Positions 22,913-31,213 of a stretch of DNA of 56,666 nt are shown one piece after another. The stretch comes from Geodermatophilaceae bacterium (GTDB taxonomy: Bacteria; Actinomycetota; Actinomycetes; Mycobacteriales; Geodermatophilaceae), in the NCBI GenBank assembly GCA_013812145.1, contig JACCTY010000135.1, positions 1 through 56,666 on the forward strand. Direction: 5' to 3'. Both the position numbers and the translations under genes were made by a program. The first letter of the stretch is position 1. Each line of letters opens with the position of its first letter. Under the pieces are notes generated by a model that was not told where the DNA came from, did no database searches, and saw only the letters and a program-made list of their open reading frames with translations.

Positions 22913-23434
22913 TCGGCTTACTGCGCTGCGAGGCGTCCACGCCGGACCCTGGCGTGCACGCCGCATACGACGGTCCCCGGTTTCGGCCGACATCGGGATG
23001 CTCGCGGTTCTATTACGCGCACGCCACTGTCAGCGCGAGCGGATGGCCAGCCTGGCCGACTGTCTGGCGGCGGGCAACCGGGCACCGGACGCCCGGCTCG
23101 CGACTGCTGACCCCGAGCTGGCGACCATTCGCGCCGAAACGGCAGTCTGCTGTCGCTCCCGGACAGCTCCGGAGGAATGCCGTAGAGCGCAAGCAGCATC
23201 GACTCGTGAGCCTCCTCAAGCTGGCTGACCGGTCTGTCCGAAGGACGCCCAGGTCGTGACGGGTGAAGATCATTAGGGCAAGTGGGGGTATCCCAACCGA
23301 TGAATACCCCGATCTGGCCGTGTTGGTCATAAAGTGCCGTGCCGTGCCGCGCCGCCGGAAGTGCGATCTGGTGCCCGTCGGTGGGCGATGAGCCGCTCGC
23401 CAGGCAATGAGGCCAAGGTTTGGTGGTATCGGCG
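22913..23434. other. Intergenic stretch with no recognisable gene
   Basis: About 520 bp between hemQ and the inverted-repeat element. Open frames exist on both strands, but none has a ribosome-binding site, a recognisable domain or consistent codon use. One small feature stands out: GGGGTAT / ATACCCC at about 23285-23310 could form a hairpin. The msrB gene that often follows hemQ is instead 5.4 kb away in the opposite orientation, so this region was probably disrupted by insertions. Confidence 0.5.
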
Positions 23435-23743
23435 CTAGTGGTCAGGAACGTGAGTTCGTCGGGGTTTCGGTTCGCCGTCGCCGAGGCCCGGGGAGCCCGT
23501 TGCGGGCTGCTCGCCGCGGTGGCACCTTTTGGCCCTTTGCCCGGTGGCCGGCCGGATGCAGTGGACCGAAAGGTGCCGCTTGTCGGCTGTTTGTGGCATC
23601 TTTCGGTCCACTGCTGCGGCCCACATCACGCATTGGACCGAAAAGTGCCACCCGAAGACGCCCTCGAGTGCGCCGCCGCCTTCACACCTCAGTGACGACC
23701 AAGCGTGACCCAACCCCGACGAACCTGCGGTCCTGACCACTAG
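23435..23743. repeat. MITE-like element with inverted terminal repeats, 309 bp
   Basis: The element is bounded by CTAG and has inverted ends of about 32 bp: CTAGTGGTCAGGAACGTGAG at 23435 and the complementary CTGCGGTCCTGACCACTAG at the right end, both continuing into TTCGTCGGGGTT; about five mismatches in 32. Inside are four copies of a motif close to GGACCGAAAGGTGCCAC in alternating orientation, two of which form a 19-bp inverted repeat (23559-23577 and 23595-23613). It encodes no protein. A shorter diverged relative lies at 18551-18716, which shows that it belongs to a dispersed family. Confidence 0.75.
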
Positions 23744-24170
23744 CCGACTGGCCCACTCTGGAGGGCCGGCCTGGTTCCGATAATGGCCGTGGCGTCCAGC
23801 TCGTCAGACCTGGCCACCCGCGGGATCAGCCCGTTGCGGGCGACGGTTTCGAGGGTCTGCGGCACCTGGCGGTCGCTCGTCTCGAGTTCCTTGAGCAGAT
23901 CTCGTTGAGGATCACGCGGTGGCCGTCTCACATCACGACGCCACGCCTACCAGCGGGGAACCGAACACCACGTCCCTCAGTGTCAGGATCGCCTTGGCGT
24001 CATCGGCTCGCTCCACCACGTCTTGCCGAGTTCTGGCCTGGTCCCCTTGTGCGGCCGGTGATGCCGACGGACCGACCCGGCGTGGCTTGATAGGAGCGTG
24101 GCGTCGCCCCAACTGAGAGGTGCCCGCCGGGCCGGTCGTGTCACCCCATCCCACGAAGGGAGACAAGACC
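23744..24170. other. Non-coding leader of the IS110-type element and adjoining unassigned sequence
   Basis: No credible gene is seen. The right part (about 24000-24170) is the non-coding region immediately upstream of the IS110 transposase; in this family such a leader commonly carries the bridge (seek) RNA that pairs with donor and target DNA. The segment TTGATAGGAGCGTGG at 24088-24102 resembles TTGACATAGGAGCAAGTGG just after the transposase stop. The left part (23744-23930) contains a 63-codon minus-strand open frame without a supporting start signal. The precise left end of the IS could not be set. Confidence 0.45.
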
Positions 24171-25229
24171 ATGGTGATTGTCGGCATCGATGCGCACAAG
24201 CGCAGCCACACGGCGGTCGCCGTCGATGAGGTCGGACGCAAGCTCGGTCAGCACACGACCGGCACAACCAGCGAGGATCACCTCGCGCTGCTGGCCTGGG
24301 CTGAGCAGTTCGGCGCTGAACGGCTGTGGGCGGTAGAGGACTGCCGACACCTGTCCCGCCGGCTCGAACGAGACCTACTCGGCGCCGGCGAGCCGATCGT
24401 GCGTGTCCCGACCAAGTTGATGGCGCGCGAGCGTAACTCCGCGCGCAGCTACGGAAAGTCCGATCCGATCGACGCGCTGGCCGTCGCCCGAGCCGCGGTG
24501 CGTGAACCCGATCTGCCCAAGGCGCAGCTCGACGGACCGGCCCGGACTGTTCGCCTCCTGATCGACCACCGTGAGCATCTCGTCGCCGAGCGGACCCGTG
24601 TGATCAACCGGCTCCGCTGGCATCTGCACGAGCTTGACCCCGGTAACGAACCCCCCGCCCGCACCCTGTGGCGACCTAAGCACCTCACCGCGGTATCCGC
24701 GCAACTCGACCAGCTCGACGGCGTCGTCGCCCGCCTGGCCCGCGCTCTGGTCGAGCGATGCCGCCAGCTCACCGAGCAAATCCATGTCCTCGACGACGAA
24801 CTCGAGCCACTCGTCAAACACCTCGCACCGGCACTCCTCGACCTCTGCGGCTGCTCCACACTGACCGCGGCAAAGATCCTCGGCGAGACCGCCGATGTCC
24901 GCCGCTTCCGGTCCCGTCATGCCTTCGCCCGGCACAACGGCACCGCACCGTTGCCGGTCTGGTCGAGCAACCATGCACGGCATCGCCTCAGCCGCACCGG
25001 CAACCGTCAACTCAACACCGCGATCCACCGCATCGCGATCACTCAGGCCCGACATCACGAACCGGCCCGCCAGCTGCTCCAGCGCCGCCGCAACGGCGGC
25101 AAGAACAAGGCCGAGTCGATCCGGATCCTCAAACGCCGGCTCTCCGACGTCGTCTACCAAGCGCTACGCGCCGATGCACGCCCCAGCGCGCCGTCCCGAC
25201 TGAAGGCTGCCTGATTGACATAGGAGCAA
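24088..25229 (+). mobile_element. IS110-family insertion sequence (ends approximate)
   Basis: The element consists of the DEDD transposase gene plus flanking non-coding DNA. IS110 elements lack terminal inverted repeats, and none are seen. The coordinates given run between two similar TTGA-TAGGAGC segments (24088-24097 and about 25215-25227) and are only a minimum estimate; the real left end is probably further upstream. No target-site duplication could be identified. Confidence 0.6.
24171..25214 (+). CDS. IS110-family DEDD transposase
   Basis: The 347-residue enzyme is full length for the family. Its N-terminal RuvC-like DEDD domain shows VIVGIDAHKRSHTAVAVDE, AVEDC and KSDPIDALAVARAAV; a coiled-coil region follows (about 130-235), then the C-terminal transposase_20 domain with LLDLCGCSTLTAAKILGE, DVRRFRSRHAFARHNG and the Ser region SSNHARHRLSRTGNRQLN. 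No frameshift is seen, so it may be active. The start ATG 24171 has GGGAGA about 8 bases upstream. Related enzymes insert DNA under guidance of an element-encoded bridge RNA. Confidence 0.93.
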   Translation: MVIVGIDAHKRSHTAVAVDEVGRKLGQHTTGTTSEDHLALLAWAEQFGAERLWAVEDCRHLSRRLERDLLGAGEPIVRVPTKLMARERNSARSYGKSDPIDALAVARAAVREPDLPKAQLDGPARTVRLLIDHREHLVAERTRVINRLRWHLHELDPGNEPPARTLWRPKHLTAVSAQLDQLDGVVARLARALVERCRQLTEQIHVLDDELEPLVKHLAPALLDLCGCSTLTAAKILGETADVRRFRSRHAFARHNGTAPLPVWSSNHARHRLSRTGNRQLNTAIHRIAITQARHHEPARQLLQRRRNGGKNKAESIRILKRRLSDVVYQALRADARPSAPSRLKAA

Positions 25230-25701: not shown

Positions 25702-26889
25702 TCAAGACCTGGCAACGATCTCCCGCACCCGGCGCTCCAGGAAGCGGCGTTCGGCAGCTGTCCGCACCAGGTCGAGCGCCTCGCGGTAGGCGGCGGCCGC
25801 TTCCTCGTTGCGTCCGGCGCGGCGGAGCAGGTCCGCCCGGACCGCGGGCAGCAGGTGGTAGTCCGCCAGCCGGCCGGCGCCCTCGACCTCTGCCAGCGCG
25901 TCCAGCCCGGCTTCCGGCCCGTCGCGGAACCCGAGCGCCACCGCCCGGTTGAGCGCCACCACCGGTGACGGCTGTATCTCCAGCAGCGCGTGGTAGGCGG
26001 CCACCACCCGAGCCCAGTCGGTCTCGGCAGCCTCGGGAGCAGTGGCGTGCTGTGCGGCTATCTCGGCCTGCAGCCGGTAGGACCCCGGCGGGCGCCTCGT
26101 CGCGCGGGCGGTCGCCAGGCTCGCCAGCCCGGCAGCCACCAGCCGGTGGTCCCAGCGGCTCCGGTCCTGCTCCTCCATCGGCACCAGCTCGCCGGCCGCG
26201 TCAGTTCGGGCCGCCCGACGGGCGTGCTGGAGGAGCAACAGCGCTCGGAGCCCCTGCACCTCGTCGTCCTCGGGCAGCAGCTGGGCCACCAGCCCGGCGA
26301 GCCGCACGGCCTCTGCGGCGAGGTCATCGCGGGTGCCTTCGCCCTCGGTGACTGCGTACCCCTCGTTGAAGACGAGGTAGACGACGGCCAGCACACCGGC
26401 GGTCCGCTCGGCGAGCCGGTGCGGCTCGGGTACCCGGAACGTGATGCCCGTGTTCGCGATCTTGGTCCGCGTCCGCAACAGCCGCTGTCCCATGGTCGCC
26501 TCGCTGACCAAAAAGGCGCGGGCAATCTCTCGGGTCGACAGGCCGGCGACCGTCTTCAGGGTGAGCGCCACCTGGCCCGCCAGCGGTAGCGCCGGGTGAC
26601 AGCAGGTGAACAGCAGCCGCAGCCGATCGTCGCGGTAGACCTCGCCGTGCGGGTCGGGGTCAGGCCCAGTGCCGGCGGACCGCTCGTCGAACGTGGCCAA
26701 GGCCGTCAGCTCTCGCAGCTTGCCCGCCTCGGTCCGGCGACGGCGCAGCACGTCGAGGGCCCGCCGGTGGGCGGTCGTGGTGAGCCAGGCGGCCGGGTTG
26801 TCCGGGACGCCGTCGCGCGGCCAGTGGGCCAACGCGCGCTCGACGGCGTCCTGGACGCAGTCCTCGGCCAGATCCCAGTCCCCGGTCAC
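25702..26889 (-). CDS. ECF42-type RNA polymerase sigma factor with C-terminal extension
   Basis: This is a sigma-70 family extracytoplasmic-function factor: region 2 includes DWDLAEDCVQDAVERAL and AWLTTTAHRRALDVLRRRR, region 4 includes GLSTREIARAFLVSEATMGQRL, and a helical C-terminal extension of about 200 residues (VYLVFNEGYAV, YHALLEIQPSPVVALNRAVA) matches the TPR-like tail of group ECF42. ECF42 factors are known to pair with DGPF/YCII proteins, and one is encoded directly upstream. The first possible start, GTG 26889, falls inside region 2. The 29 upstream codons up to the YCII stop are open and look like the natural N-terminus but contain no ATG, GTG or TTG. Confidence 0.88.
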   Translation of the reverse strand: MTGDWDLAEDCVQDAVERALAHWPRDGVPDNPAAWLTTTAHRRALDVLRRRRTEAGKLRELTALATFDERSAGTGPDPDPHGEVYRDDRLRLLFTCCHPALPLAGQVALTLKTVAGLSTREIARAFLVSEATMGQRLLRTRTKIANTGITFRVPEPHRLAERTAGVLAVVYLVFNEGYAVTEGEGTRDDLAAEAVRLAGLVAQLLPEDDEVQGLRALLLLQHARRAARTDAAGELVPMEEQDRSRWDHRLVAAGLASLATARATRRPPGSYRLQAEIAAQHATAPEAAETDWARVVAAYHALLEIQPSPVVALNRAVALGFRDGPEAGLDALAEVEGAGRLADYHLLPAVRADLLRRAGRNEEAAAAYREALDLVRTAAERRFLERRVREIVARS

Positions 26890-26976
26890 CCTGATCAGGC
26901 CCGCGACGATCCGCAGCCGCTCGCCGGCGACCGCCGCGGCGAGCGGCCGCGCAACGCCGTCGGTGCCGCCGATTGG

Positions 26977-27315
26977 TCAGCCCTCGTCCATCGGCCAGAA
27001 CGGCCGCAGCTCGAGCCGGCCGGAGCGGGCCATCGGGTGCTTCGACGCGATCTCGATCGCCTCGTCCAGGTCCTCGCACTCGAGCACGTCGAAGCCGATG
27101 ATCCAATCCTTGGACTCCGTGAACGGCCCGTCGGTGACCAACGTCTCGCCGGAACGCACCCGGACCGTGGTCGCGTCCTCGACCGGACGCAGCCGGTCAC
27201 CGGTGACCCACTTGCCGCGGCCCTCGACGTCAGCGAACCAGGTCTCGATGTCGGCGGGCGGCTCGGACGAGGTGTCGGGGGTGGTGTCGGTGGCGACGAA
27301 CATCATGTACTTCAT
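26977..27315 (-). CDS. YCII-related (DGPF domain) protein, ECF42 partner
   Basis: The 112-residue protein matches the DGPF/YCII family: MKYMMFVATD, the name-giving VTDGPFTESKDWIIGFDVLE and the C-terminal IASKHPMARSGRLELRPFW. It is a ferredoxin-like fold related to muconolactone isomerases; the catalytic role is unknown. Such genes are characteristic targets of ECF42 sigma factors. The TGA stop at 26979-26977 lies in the same reading frame as the following sigma gene, with nothing but that one stop between them. Confidence 0.92.
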   Translation of the reverse strand: MKYMMFVATDTTPDTSSEPPADIETWFADVEGRGKWVTGDRLRPVEDATTVRVRSGETLVTDGPFTESKDWIIGFDVLECEDLDEAIEIASKHPMARSGRLELRPFWPMDEG

Positions 27316-27366
27316 CGTGTCTCTCCTTCAGGTAGACGCTACGACTGGTACGACGATCAGCAATCC

Positions 27367-27400
27367 CCGAATCCGACAGGCTGGGCAGCGTTGGATTCGG
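27367..27400 (-). terminator. Possible hairpin between methyltransferase and YCII genes
   Basis: CCGAATCC at 27367-27374 and GGATTCGG at 27393-27400 form a perfect 8-bp stem with an 18-base loop in the 124-bp gap. It could terminate the methyltransferase transcript or be part of the control region of the YCII-sigma pair. Confidence 0.35.
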
Positions 27401-28268: not shown

Positions 28269-28685
28269 TTACTGGTCAGCCGGTTCCAGGCTGAGGCTTA
28301 CCGAGTTGATGCAGTAGCGGTCGCCGGTCGGCGTCTGCGGGGCGTCGTCGAAGAGGTGTCCGAGATGCGAGTGGCAGTTCGCACACAGCGCCTCCACGCG
28401 TGCCATTCCGAGGGAGCGGTCCTCGCGCAGGATGACCTTGTCCTGATCCGTGGGCTGGTAGAAGCTCGGCCAGCCGCAGTGCGAGTCGAACTTGGCGTCG
28501 GACCTGAACAGTTCGCTGCCGCAGGCTCGGCAGCGGTAGACGCCGGTGGTCTTGGTGTCGACGTATTCGCCGGTGCCGGCACGTTCGGTCCCGGCCTCGC
28601 GCAGGATGTGGTACTCCTCTGGCGACAGCTGCTGACGCCATTCGTCCTCGGACTTGGCGATCGTCGGTGGGGGAATCTGCTGCAT
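28269..28685 (-). CDS. msrB: Peptide-methionine (R)-S-oxide reductase
   Basis: MsrB reduces methionine-R-sulfoxide in proteins. The 138-residue length is normal. Two zinc-binding pairs (CRAC and CANC), the substrate motif DSHCGWPSFYQP and the catalytic Cys in GDRYCINSVSL are intact; FDDAP with HSHLGHLF is also present. ATG 28685 is used. In other actinobacteria msrB tends to lie near hemQ; here the two are 5.4 kb apart with an IS110 element and unassigned sequence between. Confidence 0.96.
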   Translation of the reverse strand: MQQIPPPTIAKSEDEWRQQLSPEEYHILREAGTERAGTGEYVDTKTTGVYRCRACGSELFRSDAKFDSHCGWPSFYQPTDQDKVILREDRSLGMARVEALCANCHSHLGHLFDDAPQTPTGDRYCINSVSLSLEPADQ

Positions 28686-28742
28686 GCCCCCACGGTACGG
28701 CGCGATCATCCGCCGCGCCGTACCGCCGGGATAACGAGACTC

Positions 28743-31151
28743 CTACGCCGGTTGCGAGGAGCCCGAGGCGCAGTTCCGCCCGAAGCAGCGCTGTATCCCC
28801 AACCGGACCACCAGCGGGTCGTGGTCGCTGGCCTGGTCGGCGAACTCCGAGTTGACGTGGACGATGTCGTAGAAGAATCCCGGCCGCCCGAACCTGCCCT
28901 CCAGCAGCGACGGCGACAGCAGGATGTGGTCCAGGGCCTGCGAGTTGCCCTCGAAGATGAAGGTGTACTGATCGCCCACCGGCAGGGTGGAGGTCAGGTT
29001 CGTCAGGCTGCCGGTGGATTCCAGGATCCGCATGGTTTCGGAGAACTGGAAATCGTTGATGTCGCCAGTCACCGCCACGCGGGCGCGGGGATCGCTGGCC
29101 AGCAGGTCGTCCGCGAAGGAGCGCACGAGGTCGGCCTGCTGGTGGCGCTGGTTCTCCGACGAACGCACTGGTGGTTGAGTCGCGCCGAACAGCGGGTCGT
29201 CGCCGCCCTTGGAGTTGAAGTGGTTTGCGACGATGAACACCGTCTGACCCCGGTAGGTGAACTCACCGGCCAGCGGTTTGCGGCTGTCCTCCCACGCCGG
29301 ATCGTTCGGCTCGATGCGCCCCGGCGAGATGCTCAGTGCGGTCCGGCCGTTGATCTCGACGACCTCGACCGCTGTCGTGGCGTCTCCGCCGAGCCGGTCC
29401 ACGAAGTCCAAGCCGCGGTCGGTGCGGAACAGGAAACCGACCCGGATGTTTCCGCCCGGCTGACCGCCGTCCTGGTCGTCGACCGGGTCGATCTGGCGGT
29501 AGTCGTACGTCGGGCCGCCAGCTGCGGCGATCGCGGCGATGAACGTCTCGAACGTCAATGAGGCATCGGTAATTGCGGAGTTCGTGGGTCCGTCGTTGTC
29601 CTGAACCTCCTCCACCGCGATGACGTCAGGGGAGCGCATGTTGCCGACCACAATGGCGGCGAGCTGGGCGAACTTCTCCGGCTCACTGGTGGCCGCGAGG
29701 TTCTCCAGGTTCATGGAGCCGATCGCGAGCTGGGCAGCCGTCGCAGGCTGCGTCACCTCGCGCTGCAGACCTCCATCCGCGACCGTGGGCGCGGCCGTGA
29801 CCAGGAACTTGAAGTTGCCGAAGCTGTAGTCCTGCACCCCGACGGTGGCGCCGGGGAGGGTGTCGCGGACATCGGCCAGCGGCATCGTTCCTGCCGGGAT
29901 CAGAGCGTCGTCGAGGATGATCCGCTCGGGGTTGAAGTCGTTGGGCCGGATGACGATGCCGCCACGCGGGGTTCGTATGCCGGCGCCGCTGGTCACGACG
30001 GGGATCTCCCCGAAGCCACTGGTCGGCCCGACCACCTGCGCGTCGTTGACCTGGCCGAGCATGCCCTCCAGCGACTCGTAGAAGTCGATCCCGTCCGTCC
30101 GCGGGTCGAAGCTGGTGAACTGGTCGTCCTCGATGACCACGGTCGGCGGGACGCGCCCACCAGGCCCGATCACCGTCGGAGCTATCGATCCGCGAGGGTC
30201 CGCAGCCGTCACCGTCGGACCGACGATCTCGGTCGTCGTGAGTTCGCCGAAGCCGAACTCGTCCACGGTGCCGTCCACCTCGATGCTGTCGCCGACCGCC
30301 ACCGCCGGCGCAGCGCCGGTGAACACCAGGATGCCCTCGCTGGTAGCGGGGTCCGCATCCGGCGCCGGGTCCTGCATCCAGAACCGGTTGGCCGCCACCA
30401 CGGTCACGATGCCGGGCACGTTGACCACGAACTCGCCGTCGAACGGCGAGGTATGTGTCGCGCCCTGGATGTCGTGGATGAACAGACCCTCGGTGCCGGG
30501 GGGCGGCACGTCCGCGCAGTCCTCCCCGCAGTTCTCCGGCGTCGGCGTGTCCTCGGTGAAGTCGTTGGCGTTGTTGTCGGTGTCGGTTCCGGTCGCGTCG
30601 CGGGAGGCCGAGGTGATGCTCGTCAGCGCGACGCCGGTCGGCATGGTCTCCGAGTCGCTGGCGGTGGTTCCGTAACCGACCAGGTCGCGTACTGATGGCA
30701 CCGCCGAGCAGCTGCCGAGAGTGGCGCCGCAGCTCAGCGGCATCGCGTCGGTGACCAGCGCGACCTTGCCGGAGCTGCCGCTCATCGCGATCGTCCCGGT
30801 GGCGTCCGGGGGCGGCAGGTCCACCGTGCCGCCTGTCCCGAAGCCCTCGCCGACGAGGTAGGAGCGGCCGGGCGGGATGACGCCGGCCAGCTCGGTGACC
30901 TGCCACGTCGAGCCGGTGGACGACGCGTACTGGACCGACCAGCCGTCCACGCTGACCTCGTTGCTGCCGGCGTTGTAGAGCTCGATGAAGTCCTGCCTCA
31001 GGGTGGCGCCGGAGTTGCCGCCGCCGCCGTACACCTCGCTGATGACGATGTCAGGCGAAACCGCCTGTGCGGGACCGGCGAGAGCCAGTCCGCTGACGGA
31101 GATGGCAGCCACGGTTGCGGCGGACAGGGTGGCACGGATGCGGTTTCGCAC
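28743..31151 (-). CDS. Secreted ExeM/NucH-family extracellular endonuclease with lamin-tail domain
   Basis: The 802-residue protein begins with a Sec signal peptide (TLSAATVAAISVSGLALAGP, cut after AQA). It carries a lamin-tail domain (about 30-140, VISEVYGGGGNSG and DFIELYNAGSNEVSVDGW), an OB-fold-like middle (about 215-320) and a C-terminal endonuclease/exonuclease/phosphatase domain: IGSMNLENL, VEEVQDNDGP, VANHFNSKGGDDPLFG, VTGDINDFQFSE and QASDHDPLVVRLG, which keep the Asn, Glu, His and Asp metal and catalytic positions. Such enzymes degrade extracellular DNA. GTG 31151 has AAGGAG 8 bases upstream. A C-terminal Cys pair may form a disulfide. Confidence 0.93.
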   Translation of the reverse strand: MRNRIRATLSAATVAAISVSGLALAGPAQAVSPDIVISEVYGGGGNSGATLRQDFIELYNAGSNEVSVDGWSVQYASSTGSTWQVTELAGVIPPGRSYLVGEGFGTGGTVDLPPPDATGTIAMSGSSGKVALVTDAMPLSCGATLGSCSAVPSVRDLVGYGTTASDSETMPTGVALTSITSASRDATGTDTDNNANDFTEDTPTPENCGEDCADVPPPGTEGLFIHDIQGATHTSPFDGEFVVNVPGIVTVVAANRFWMQDPAPDADPATSEGILVFTGAAPAVAVGDSIEVDGTVDEFGFGELTTTEIVGPTVTAADPRGSIAPTVIGPGGRVPPTVVIEDDQFTSFDPRTDGIDFYESLEGMLGQVNDAQVVGPTSGFGEIPVVTSGAGIRTPRGGIVIRPNDFNPERIILDDALIPAGTMPLADVRDTLPGATVGVQDYSFGNFKFLVTAAPTVADGGLQREVTQPATAAQLAIGSMNLENLAATSEPEKFAQLAAIVVGNMRSPDVIAVEEVQDNDGPTNSAITDASLTFETFIAAIAAAGGPTYDYRQIDPVDDQDGGQPGGNIRVGFLFRTDRGLDFVDRLGGDATTAVEVVEINGRTALSISPGRIEPNDPAWEDSRKPLAGEFTYRGQTVFIVANHFNSKGGDDPLFGATQPPVRSSENQRHQQADLVRSFADDLLASDPRARVAVTGDINDFQFSETMRILESTGSLTNLTSTLPVGDQYTFIFEGNSQALDHILLSPSLLEGRFGRPGFFYDIVHVNSEFADQASDHDPLVVRLGIQRCFGRNCASGSSQPA

Positions 31152-31213
31152 TGACAGAACTCCTTGAAAGACAATCGGTCGGTCGTTACTACCAGTTGCT
31201 AGCGACACACGCC

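Follow-up and report, generated by a model that had tools for sequence, protein, structure and literature searches.

A YCII-ECF42-type sigma factor junction with a putative non-canonical ATC start codon in a Geodermatophilaceae bacterium

Organization of the Locus

The window analyzed here is a 56,666-nucleotide stretch of a Geodermatophilaceae genome (contig JACCTY010000135.1). Its minus strand carries a DGPF-type YCII gene (residues 1-109 of 112 matched in a Pfam profile search, E 1.4e-13) and, directly behind it, a gene for a putative ECF42-type sigma factor (Table 1). The two frames are parted solely by the TGA of YCII. As the original prediction had it, the sigma gene continues in the YCII frame and no ATG, GTG or TTG is found in the 29 codons that precede the GTG at codon 30. 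The second codon after the YCII stop is ATC. The comparisons below indicate that the junction is a real oddity and one that is common to relatives.

The sigma frame matches Sigma70_r2, Sigma70_r4_2 and DUF6596 in Pfam, all above cut-off. DUF6596 lies in a C-terminal extension of ~240 residues, which matches TPR_2 solely below the cut-off of that profile, and the C-terminus is helical in an AlphaFold2 model of the sigma frame. As is typical of ECF42 factors, a YCII gene stands directly upstream and an anti-sigma gene is absent among the neighbors scanned. The group name ECF42 was taken from the original prediction and rests on the domains, the C-terminal extension and the YCII neighbor. A sequence search for a solved structural relative of the sigma factor found none at E 0.001. 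A TGTC[GC]G-N17-CGTC motif lies upstream of YCII in the window and in all five of its near relatives (6/6 loci, described below), and the copy in the window resembles promoter sequences given for RpoE10 (ECF42) in PMC6180224. The promoter in front of YCII is thus likely to be self-activated and of the ECF42 type.

The next genes scanned beside the pair encode a methyltransferase and an IS110 transposase. The latter, an IS110-family transposase on the plus strand (24120-25214), is located downstream of the sigma gene. Further on, a ~310-bp element (23434-23744) is bounded by terminal inverted repeats of 33 nt (88% complementary), contains 20-nt repeats that alternate in orientation, and looks like a small non-autonomous mobile element. 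On the other side, two genes upstream of YCII and likewise on the minus strand, lies the gene for a SelR domain protein of the methionine sulfoxide reductase B type (28269-28709). A large protein with a lamin tail domain and an endonuclease/exonuclease/phosphatase domain is encoded at 28743-31208.

Table 1. Features of the YCII-sigma locus, in the order of transcription (positions in the window).
Feature	Position	Strand	Remarks
TGTCGG-N17-CGTC, likely autoregulatory ECF42-type promoter	27352..27378	-	TGTCGG 27378-27373, CGTC 27355-27352; putative function
AAGGAG ribosome site of YCII	27328-27323	-	Upstream of YCII ATG
YCII (DGPF-type) gene	26977..27315	-	ATG 27315 to TGA 26977; 112 aa; Pfam YCII PF03795
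Shine-Dalgarno-like GAGGG	26981..26985	-	Within the last YCII codons, 7 nt before ATC
TGA stop of YCII, in sigma frame	26977..26979	-	Read from sequence
Sigma frame	26976 (CCA) to 25705	-	424 codons, stop 25704-25702, same frame as YCII
Proposed non-canonical sigma start ATC	26971..26973	-	Proposed from ATC/GTC in 6/6 clade loci
ECF42-type sigma factor read from proposed ATC	25702..26973	-	Sigma regions 2 and 4, helical C-terminal extension
Perfect inverted repeat	26916..26947	-	11-bp arms, 10-nt loop
First canonical start GTG	26887..26889	-	Considered not to be the main start; lies where predicted helix 5-31 ends

Relatives and Survey of YCII-Sigma Pairs

Relatives were sought among near relatives of the window, in its own genome, in order, family, class and phylum samples, in two further families, in a second center in the order and in named GTDB genomes. 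Among the matches listed, six loci group near the window gene: L001 (the window), L003 (88%), L002 and L004 (both 76%), L005 (68%) and L118 (60%), hereafter the clade. A Jiangella group of sigma relatives scores 70-74%. We did not find a seventh clade member at the E-value limits used in the order, family, class and phylum samples, the two further families and the second center in the order, nor among the matches listed from the named GTDB genomes. In a tree of 62 proteins, L118 has a long branch and falls outside a group made up of L005, the four other loci and Jiangella. Support is 100/100 for the entire set, 93/54 for the inner group and 81/85 for L001-L004; the bootstrap is not fully settled.

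The tree proteins represent 62 of the 103 pairs in a survey of 156 sigma loci, 103 of which have YCII upstream; the 53 in which tblastn detected no YCII were left out, as were L032-L037, weak hits to other genes. L146 is identical to L038 and is counted among the 103 pairs, and among the subsets of 95 pairs and 50 RTGA pairs used below, but not among the Jiangella loci. RTGA overlaps occur in 50/103. In 78 of 95, a canonical start falls within a range from 8 nt upstream to 30 nt downstream of the YCII stop. A sigma gene in the same frame as YCII is not rare in itself (15/103 pairs); the features that exceed chance expectation are the conserved coding ahead of GTG 26889 and the recurrence of the layout in relatives. 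Among the clade loci the shared frame is found in L001-L004 and L118; the sigma gene of L005 is in the frame of a CTG overlapping the stop. In ten of the 11 different Jiangella loci, the YCII stop is overlapped by an ATG or GTG; the remaining one has a GTG at +10. The six clade loci have no canonical overlapping start because a C precedes their TGA.

The original prediction named alignment of this junction in relatives as a check, and the alignment puts the first canonical start of the five near relatives 48-101 nt past the stop: +48 in L003, +51 in L002, +66 in L118, +93 in L004 and +101 in L005, next to +90 in the window. A sequence error or private mutation is unlikely, the same layout being present in genomes G002, G012, G042 and G112. 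The relatives also make the proposed loss of a start codon less likely, yet at codon 16 the GTC of the window corresponds to a GTG in L003.

A complete lack of usable canonical starts from 30 nt before the YCII stop to the conserved helix was found in four of the 103 pairs (L001, L015, L021 and L048), or in three if the range ends one codon later, since L021 has a GTG in the helix itself. In L001, an ATG at -12 inside YCII is cut off by the TGA. L015 and L048 have a GTA overlapping a TAG stop (GTAG), no canonical start near it and a normal-looking N-terminus. L021, from the genus of the window but on another branch of the tree, has a CTG overlapping the stop and likewise a normal-looking N-terminus. 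A CTG is also found at the stop in L121 and L062, whose canonical codons lie solely inside YCII, at -28 and -19. These pairs are suggestive of a wider trend toward non-canonical starts among YCII-sigma pairs.

A Conserved ATC/GTC Codon Behind GAGG

The sigma-frame codon 2-3 nt past the YCII stop is ATC in L001, L004 and L005 and GTC in L002, L003 and L118 (RTC, R = A or G). It begins at +6 from the first stop base, or at +5 in L005, where it shifts along with the frame. When codons were permuted within the linkers, a like agreement arose in 12 of 200000 trials with five loci (without L003) and in 1 of 200000 with all six; the permutation allowed any of nine codon classes at eight positions and ignores shared ancestry, and is thus a guide and not a p-value. 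Canonical starts are found at +5 or +6 in six other pairs (L011, L019, L042, L046, L047 and L092), which makes this a natural position for a start.

The codon is preceded by a possible ribosome site. Within the final 9 nt of YCII, GAGG occurs in 6/6 clade loci, 0/11 Jiangella loci and 4/85 other pairs. As GAGGG or GAGGA it stands before the RTC in all six clade loci, with GAGG ending 7-8 nt before the codon. The duplex energy at the RTC site is -5.9 to -6.9 in the six loci. Equal or better scores are reached elsewhere in the same sequences, and duplex energies by themselves fail to single out the RTC site.

Initiation at the ATC two codons past the stop was among the options raised originally, and the comparison favors it, with ATC or GTC in frame in all six loci. 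We hold with moderate confidence that the sigma factor starts, weakly, at this non-canonical ATC next to the YCII stop. Several observations weigh against this reading. Five of the six loci have a canonical codon at +48 to +101 that spares the conserved RLRIVAGLI motif, or most of it, and the RTC is therefore needed just in the window. Genomes of this kind are rich in Ile and Val codons with C in third position, and the six loci are related by descent. L005 may instead use the CTG that overlaps its stop and is in frame with its sigma gene; the corresponding CTG in the window is out of the sigma frame and was rejected as a start.

The N-Terminus and Downstream Starts

Compared with L003, of the same genus, the 14 codons before GTG 26889 (codons 16-29) have six synonymous and no amino-acid-changing differences, and translation therefore runs across the last part of this stretch. 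Among the 15 codons that follow the stop, two differ synonymously and seven by an amino-acid change. The beginning of the post-stop stretch thus has no visible protein constraint, which counts against an ATC start. Pooled over the six linkers, GC by codon phase is 0.87, 0.70 and 0.85 (chi-square p 0.0005, or 0.003 without L003). However, Ala, Pro and Gly seem abundant in the linkers, and the L005 linker alone has no codon-phase signal, again a point against the ATC start; the signature is thus just mild support for coding.

The AlphaFold2 model (mean pLDDT 89.9, 31 sequences) places the first helix at residues 5-31, with GTG 26889 at residue 30. The start of the helix is uncertain because residues 1-10 have a mean pLDDT of just 66, whereas residues 11-30 are above 90. 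The Pfam match to sigma region 2 starts at residue 27, which aligns with position 13 of the 71-position profile, and we infer from this match that the first helix belongs to region 2.

The original prediction also considered a truncated product made from GTG 26889. This GTG is the first canonical start codon of the frame, but a truncated yet functional sigma factor beginning there is very unlikely. Such a start would remove nearly all of the predicted helix, the codons just upstream are conserved at the protein level against L003, and the duplex energy at the GTG is -4.4, weaker than at the ATC. We thus reject it as the main product.

Another possibility is that the usual sigma start in the clade is a GTG or TTG further down (+48 to +101), with the post-stop stretch forming a short, hairpin-bearing spacer. 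The window would then have lost this codon (GTC at codon 16, GTG in L003), leaving the gene crippled or dependent on a weak codon such as that GTC. A GTG or TTG does lie before RLRIVAGLI, at 4 codons in L003, 8 in L002, 8 in L004 and 12 in L005, and L118 has its GTG at +66; the spacers range in length between 19 and 49 codons and bear hairpins. However, these downstream codons are at differing positions and have no consistent Shine-Dalgarno sequence (duplex energies -1.8, -6.8, -8.2, +1.7 and -5.0). They may also be chance Val or Leu codons, as two of the 11 Jiangella loci (L038 and L144) have a GTG 4 codons before RLR despite an upstream GTG or ATG. The first helix of the window model begins upstream of the downstream codons, albeit at low confidence over residues 1-10, and the agreement in RTC and GAGG would be left unexplained. 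We regard this alternative as unlikely.

A Hairpin in the Junction

Each of the six clade junctions contains a perfect inverted repeat with arms of 9-12 bp, starting 24-53 nt after the first stop base. The right arm of the repeat in the window is within the conserved coding part. The hairpin sequences are unlike one another, except for those of L001 and L003. With linkers <35 or >200 nt left out (95 of the 103 pairs kept), stems of at least 9 bp were found in 6/6 clade loci vs. 4/89 other pairs (L009, L025, L064 and L114), although the repeat of L002 taken alone is near background (0.04-0.05). The non-clade pairs without a near canonical start have longest stems of 8 bp (L121), 5 bp (L015), 4 bp (L021 and L048) and 3 bp (L062). 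RNA folding of 26880-27000 gave a z-score of -2.42, and of the shorter 26930-26990 a z-score of +1.01. Over stop +3 to +103 and -20 to +100, z-scores are -1.05 to -4.03 in the six clade loci and +0.46 to -2.77 in three Jiangella loci. Folding energy alone does not separate the clade from Jiangella, but the inverted-repeat count does. The hairpin may hold ribosomes, attenuate transcription or have no role at all.

Readthrough and Selenocysteine

The hairpin and the shared frame also invite a different reading, in which low-level readthrough of the TGA, by a near-cognate tRNA or as selenocysteine, yields a YCII-sigma fusion beside free YCII. The product would have 112 + 1 + 424 = 537 residues, in line with the fusion of about 540 residues originally estimated. 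Recoding had to be weighed because the genome has tRNA-Sec and SelB. Contig 116 of the window genome (G000) yielded a tRNA-Sec of 71.4 bits (cut-off 47), with the anticodon TCA according to ARAGORN, and a SelB of 259.5 bits (cut-off 242.25). The tRNA-Sec gene is at the contig end (L163, 1-96) and SelB is downstream of it. Based on these two genes, the organism probably makes selenoproteins. Across the clade genomes, tRNA-Sec is above the cut-off in G000, G002, G012 and G037 (the first three confirmed by ARAGORN), and SelB in G000, G012 and G037; matches below the cut-offs of both searches were also obtained in 14/14 control genomes. Further points in favor of readthrough are the same frame in five of the six loci (L001-L004 and L118), the hairpin downstream of the TGA, and the existence of YCII-ECF fusions (PMC8999054). 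In the window the loop of this hairpin, a conceivable SECIS candidate, lies ~40 nt after the UGA.

However, L005, in a genome with tRNA-Sec, has its sigma gene in another frame, while G112 has the same frame and no tRNA-Sec above the cut-off. G042 likewise has none above the cut-off, its best candidate being a tRNA-Ser, an absence that is weak in an assembly of 460 contigs. The assemblies of G037 and G112 have 1 and about 30 contigs. None of the 103 pairs runs from YCII into the sigma gene without a stop or with a sense codon in its place, and the YCII domain is complete before the stop, its Pfam match ending at residue 109 of 112. Readthrough to a fusion, one of the options in the original prediction, is thus very improbable. 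Selenocysteine at the TGA is not supported, given the frame of L005 and the lack of a tRNA-Sec above the cut-off in G112. A natural, uninterrupted fusion was rejected as well, because the TGA interrupts the frame and 0/103 pairs are fused. Nor would a fused form have been new as such, as the prediction had supposed, since PMC8999054 already describes YCII-ECF fusions.

Comparison with Known Non-canonical Starts

The ATC/GTC of the clade matches the two codons known from infC and sigR. The infC genes of the six genomes (L171, L169, L172, L170, L168 and L167) have ATC (five) or ATT (G042), preceded by AGGAGG-like runs, at a conserved N-terminus, ISAEPRINDR or like. G002, G012 and G042 lack any canonical in-frame codon between the upstream stop and the ATC or ATT. 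The window genome (G000) has canonical in-frame codons upstream of its infC ATC, the nearest a GTG 54 nt before it, and G037 and G112 have one canonical codon each further upstream; the ATC start therefore rests on homology in these three genomes. The infC start of Streptomyces is said to be ATC and to be misannotated in most Streptomyces (PMC5472188). The codon of infC is thus of the same ATC/ATT type in the six genomes, but infC serves translation factor autoregulation and is not a sigma gene behind another gene.

The closer parallel is Streptomyces sigR, which has a published GTC start that is repressed by IF3; with a canonical codon in its place, SigR exceeds its anti-sigma factor (PMC5472188). 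Like sigR, the window gene is an actinobacterial ECF sigma gene with an RTC codon, kept between species, behind a ribosome site, and a start at this codon would hold the sigma factor below its partner. The sigR gene differs in that it stands before its anti-sigma gene, with the ribosome site AGGAGGTG (PMC5472188), while the window has an ECF42-type sigma gene directly after YCII, no anti-sigma gene seen, ATC alternating with GTC, and a hairpin. The sigR start was also demonstrated with start-codon mutations, N-terminal sequencing and IF3 mutants (PMC5472188), while the start proposed here comes from sequence comparison and a structure model. As in genes with IF3-type starts, we found no canonical full-length start in the window and a conserved non-canonical codon behind a ribosome site; the relatives have canonical codons further down. 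By analogy, IF3 may act at the sigma start.

The pair shares its domains, C-terminal extension, upstream YCII and promoter type with the ECF42 factors described with a YCII neighbor, in Streptomyces venezuelae and as Sinorhizobium RpoE10 (PMC8999054, PMC6180224). It differs in its start codon from most ECF42-YCII pairs, the great majority of those surveyed having a canonical codon near the stop (78/95, as above). The few nucleotides between the stop and the start, and a Shine-Dalgarno sequence inside the upstream gene, resemble termination-reinitiation pairs with ATGA or TGATG overlaps, although the overlapping start codons described for those are canonical (PMC6728339). We did not find non-canonical starts in ECF42 genes in the parts of the literature covered by searches on ECF42, YCII-sigma fusion and start codons. 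Start control of this rare sort has been described for a handful of genes, sigR and infC among them, and such a start in an ECF42-type sigma gene would be a new form of this known type.

Proposed Mechanism and Implications

We propose that YCII and the sigma gene form an ordinary YCII-ECF42 operon, in which the sigma gene would have a non-canonical start codon. Transcription would begin at the self-activated promoter in front of YCII. Ribosomes would make YCII and terminate at its TGA; the same or newly bound ribosomes, placed by the GAGGG, would then start the sigma factor at the ATC with an initiator Met. ATC is a weak start, disfavored by IF3 in the known cases (infC and sigR), and the sigma factor would for this reason be made below the level of YCII, which would guard against spurious sigma activity. 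The hairpin may, more speculatively, further limit or position initiation.

A broader version of this proposal is tentative, and we consider it doubtful at present. At YCII-ECF42 junctions, start-codon identity may have been given up for weak reinitiation, either at an ATC or GTC 2-3 nt past the stop, as in the clade, where the hairpin may hold ribosomes, or, in other lineages that lack the hairpin, at a CTG or GTA that overlaps the stop. IF3 and the translation rate of YCII would then set the sigma level, and these sigma factors, misplaced by gene finders, would be under a translational throttle.

If the ATC start is true, it would point to wrong start annotation in the ECF42 group and would provide a translational control point for ECF42 factors. 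As a second sigma group with conserved ATC/GTC starts, the ECF42 group would also suggest that IF3-gated starts recur as a means of keeping sigma factors scarce.
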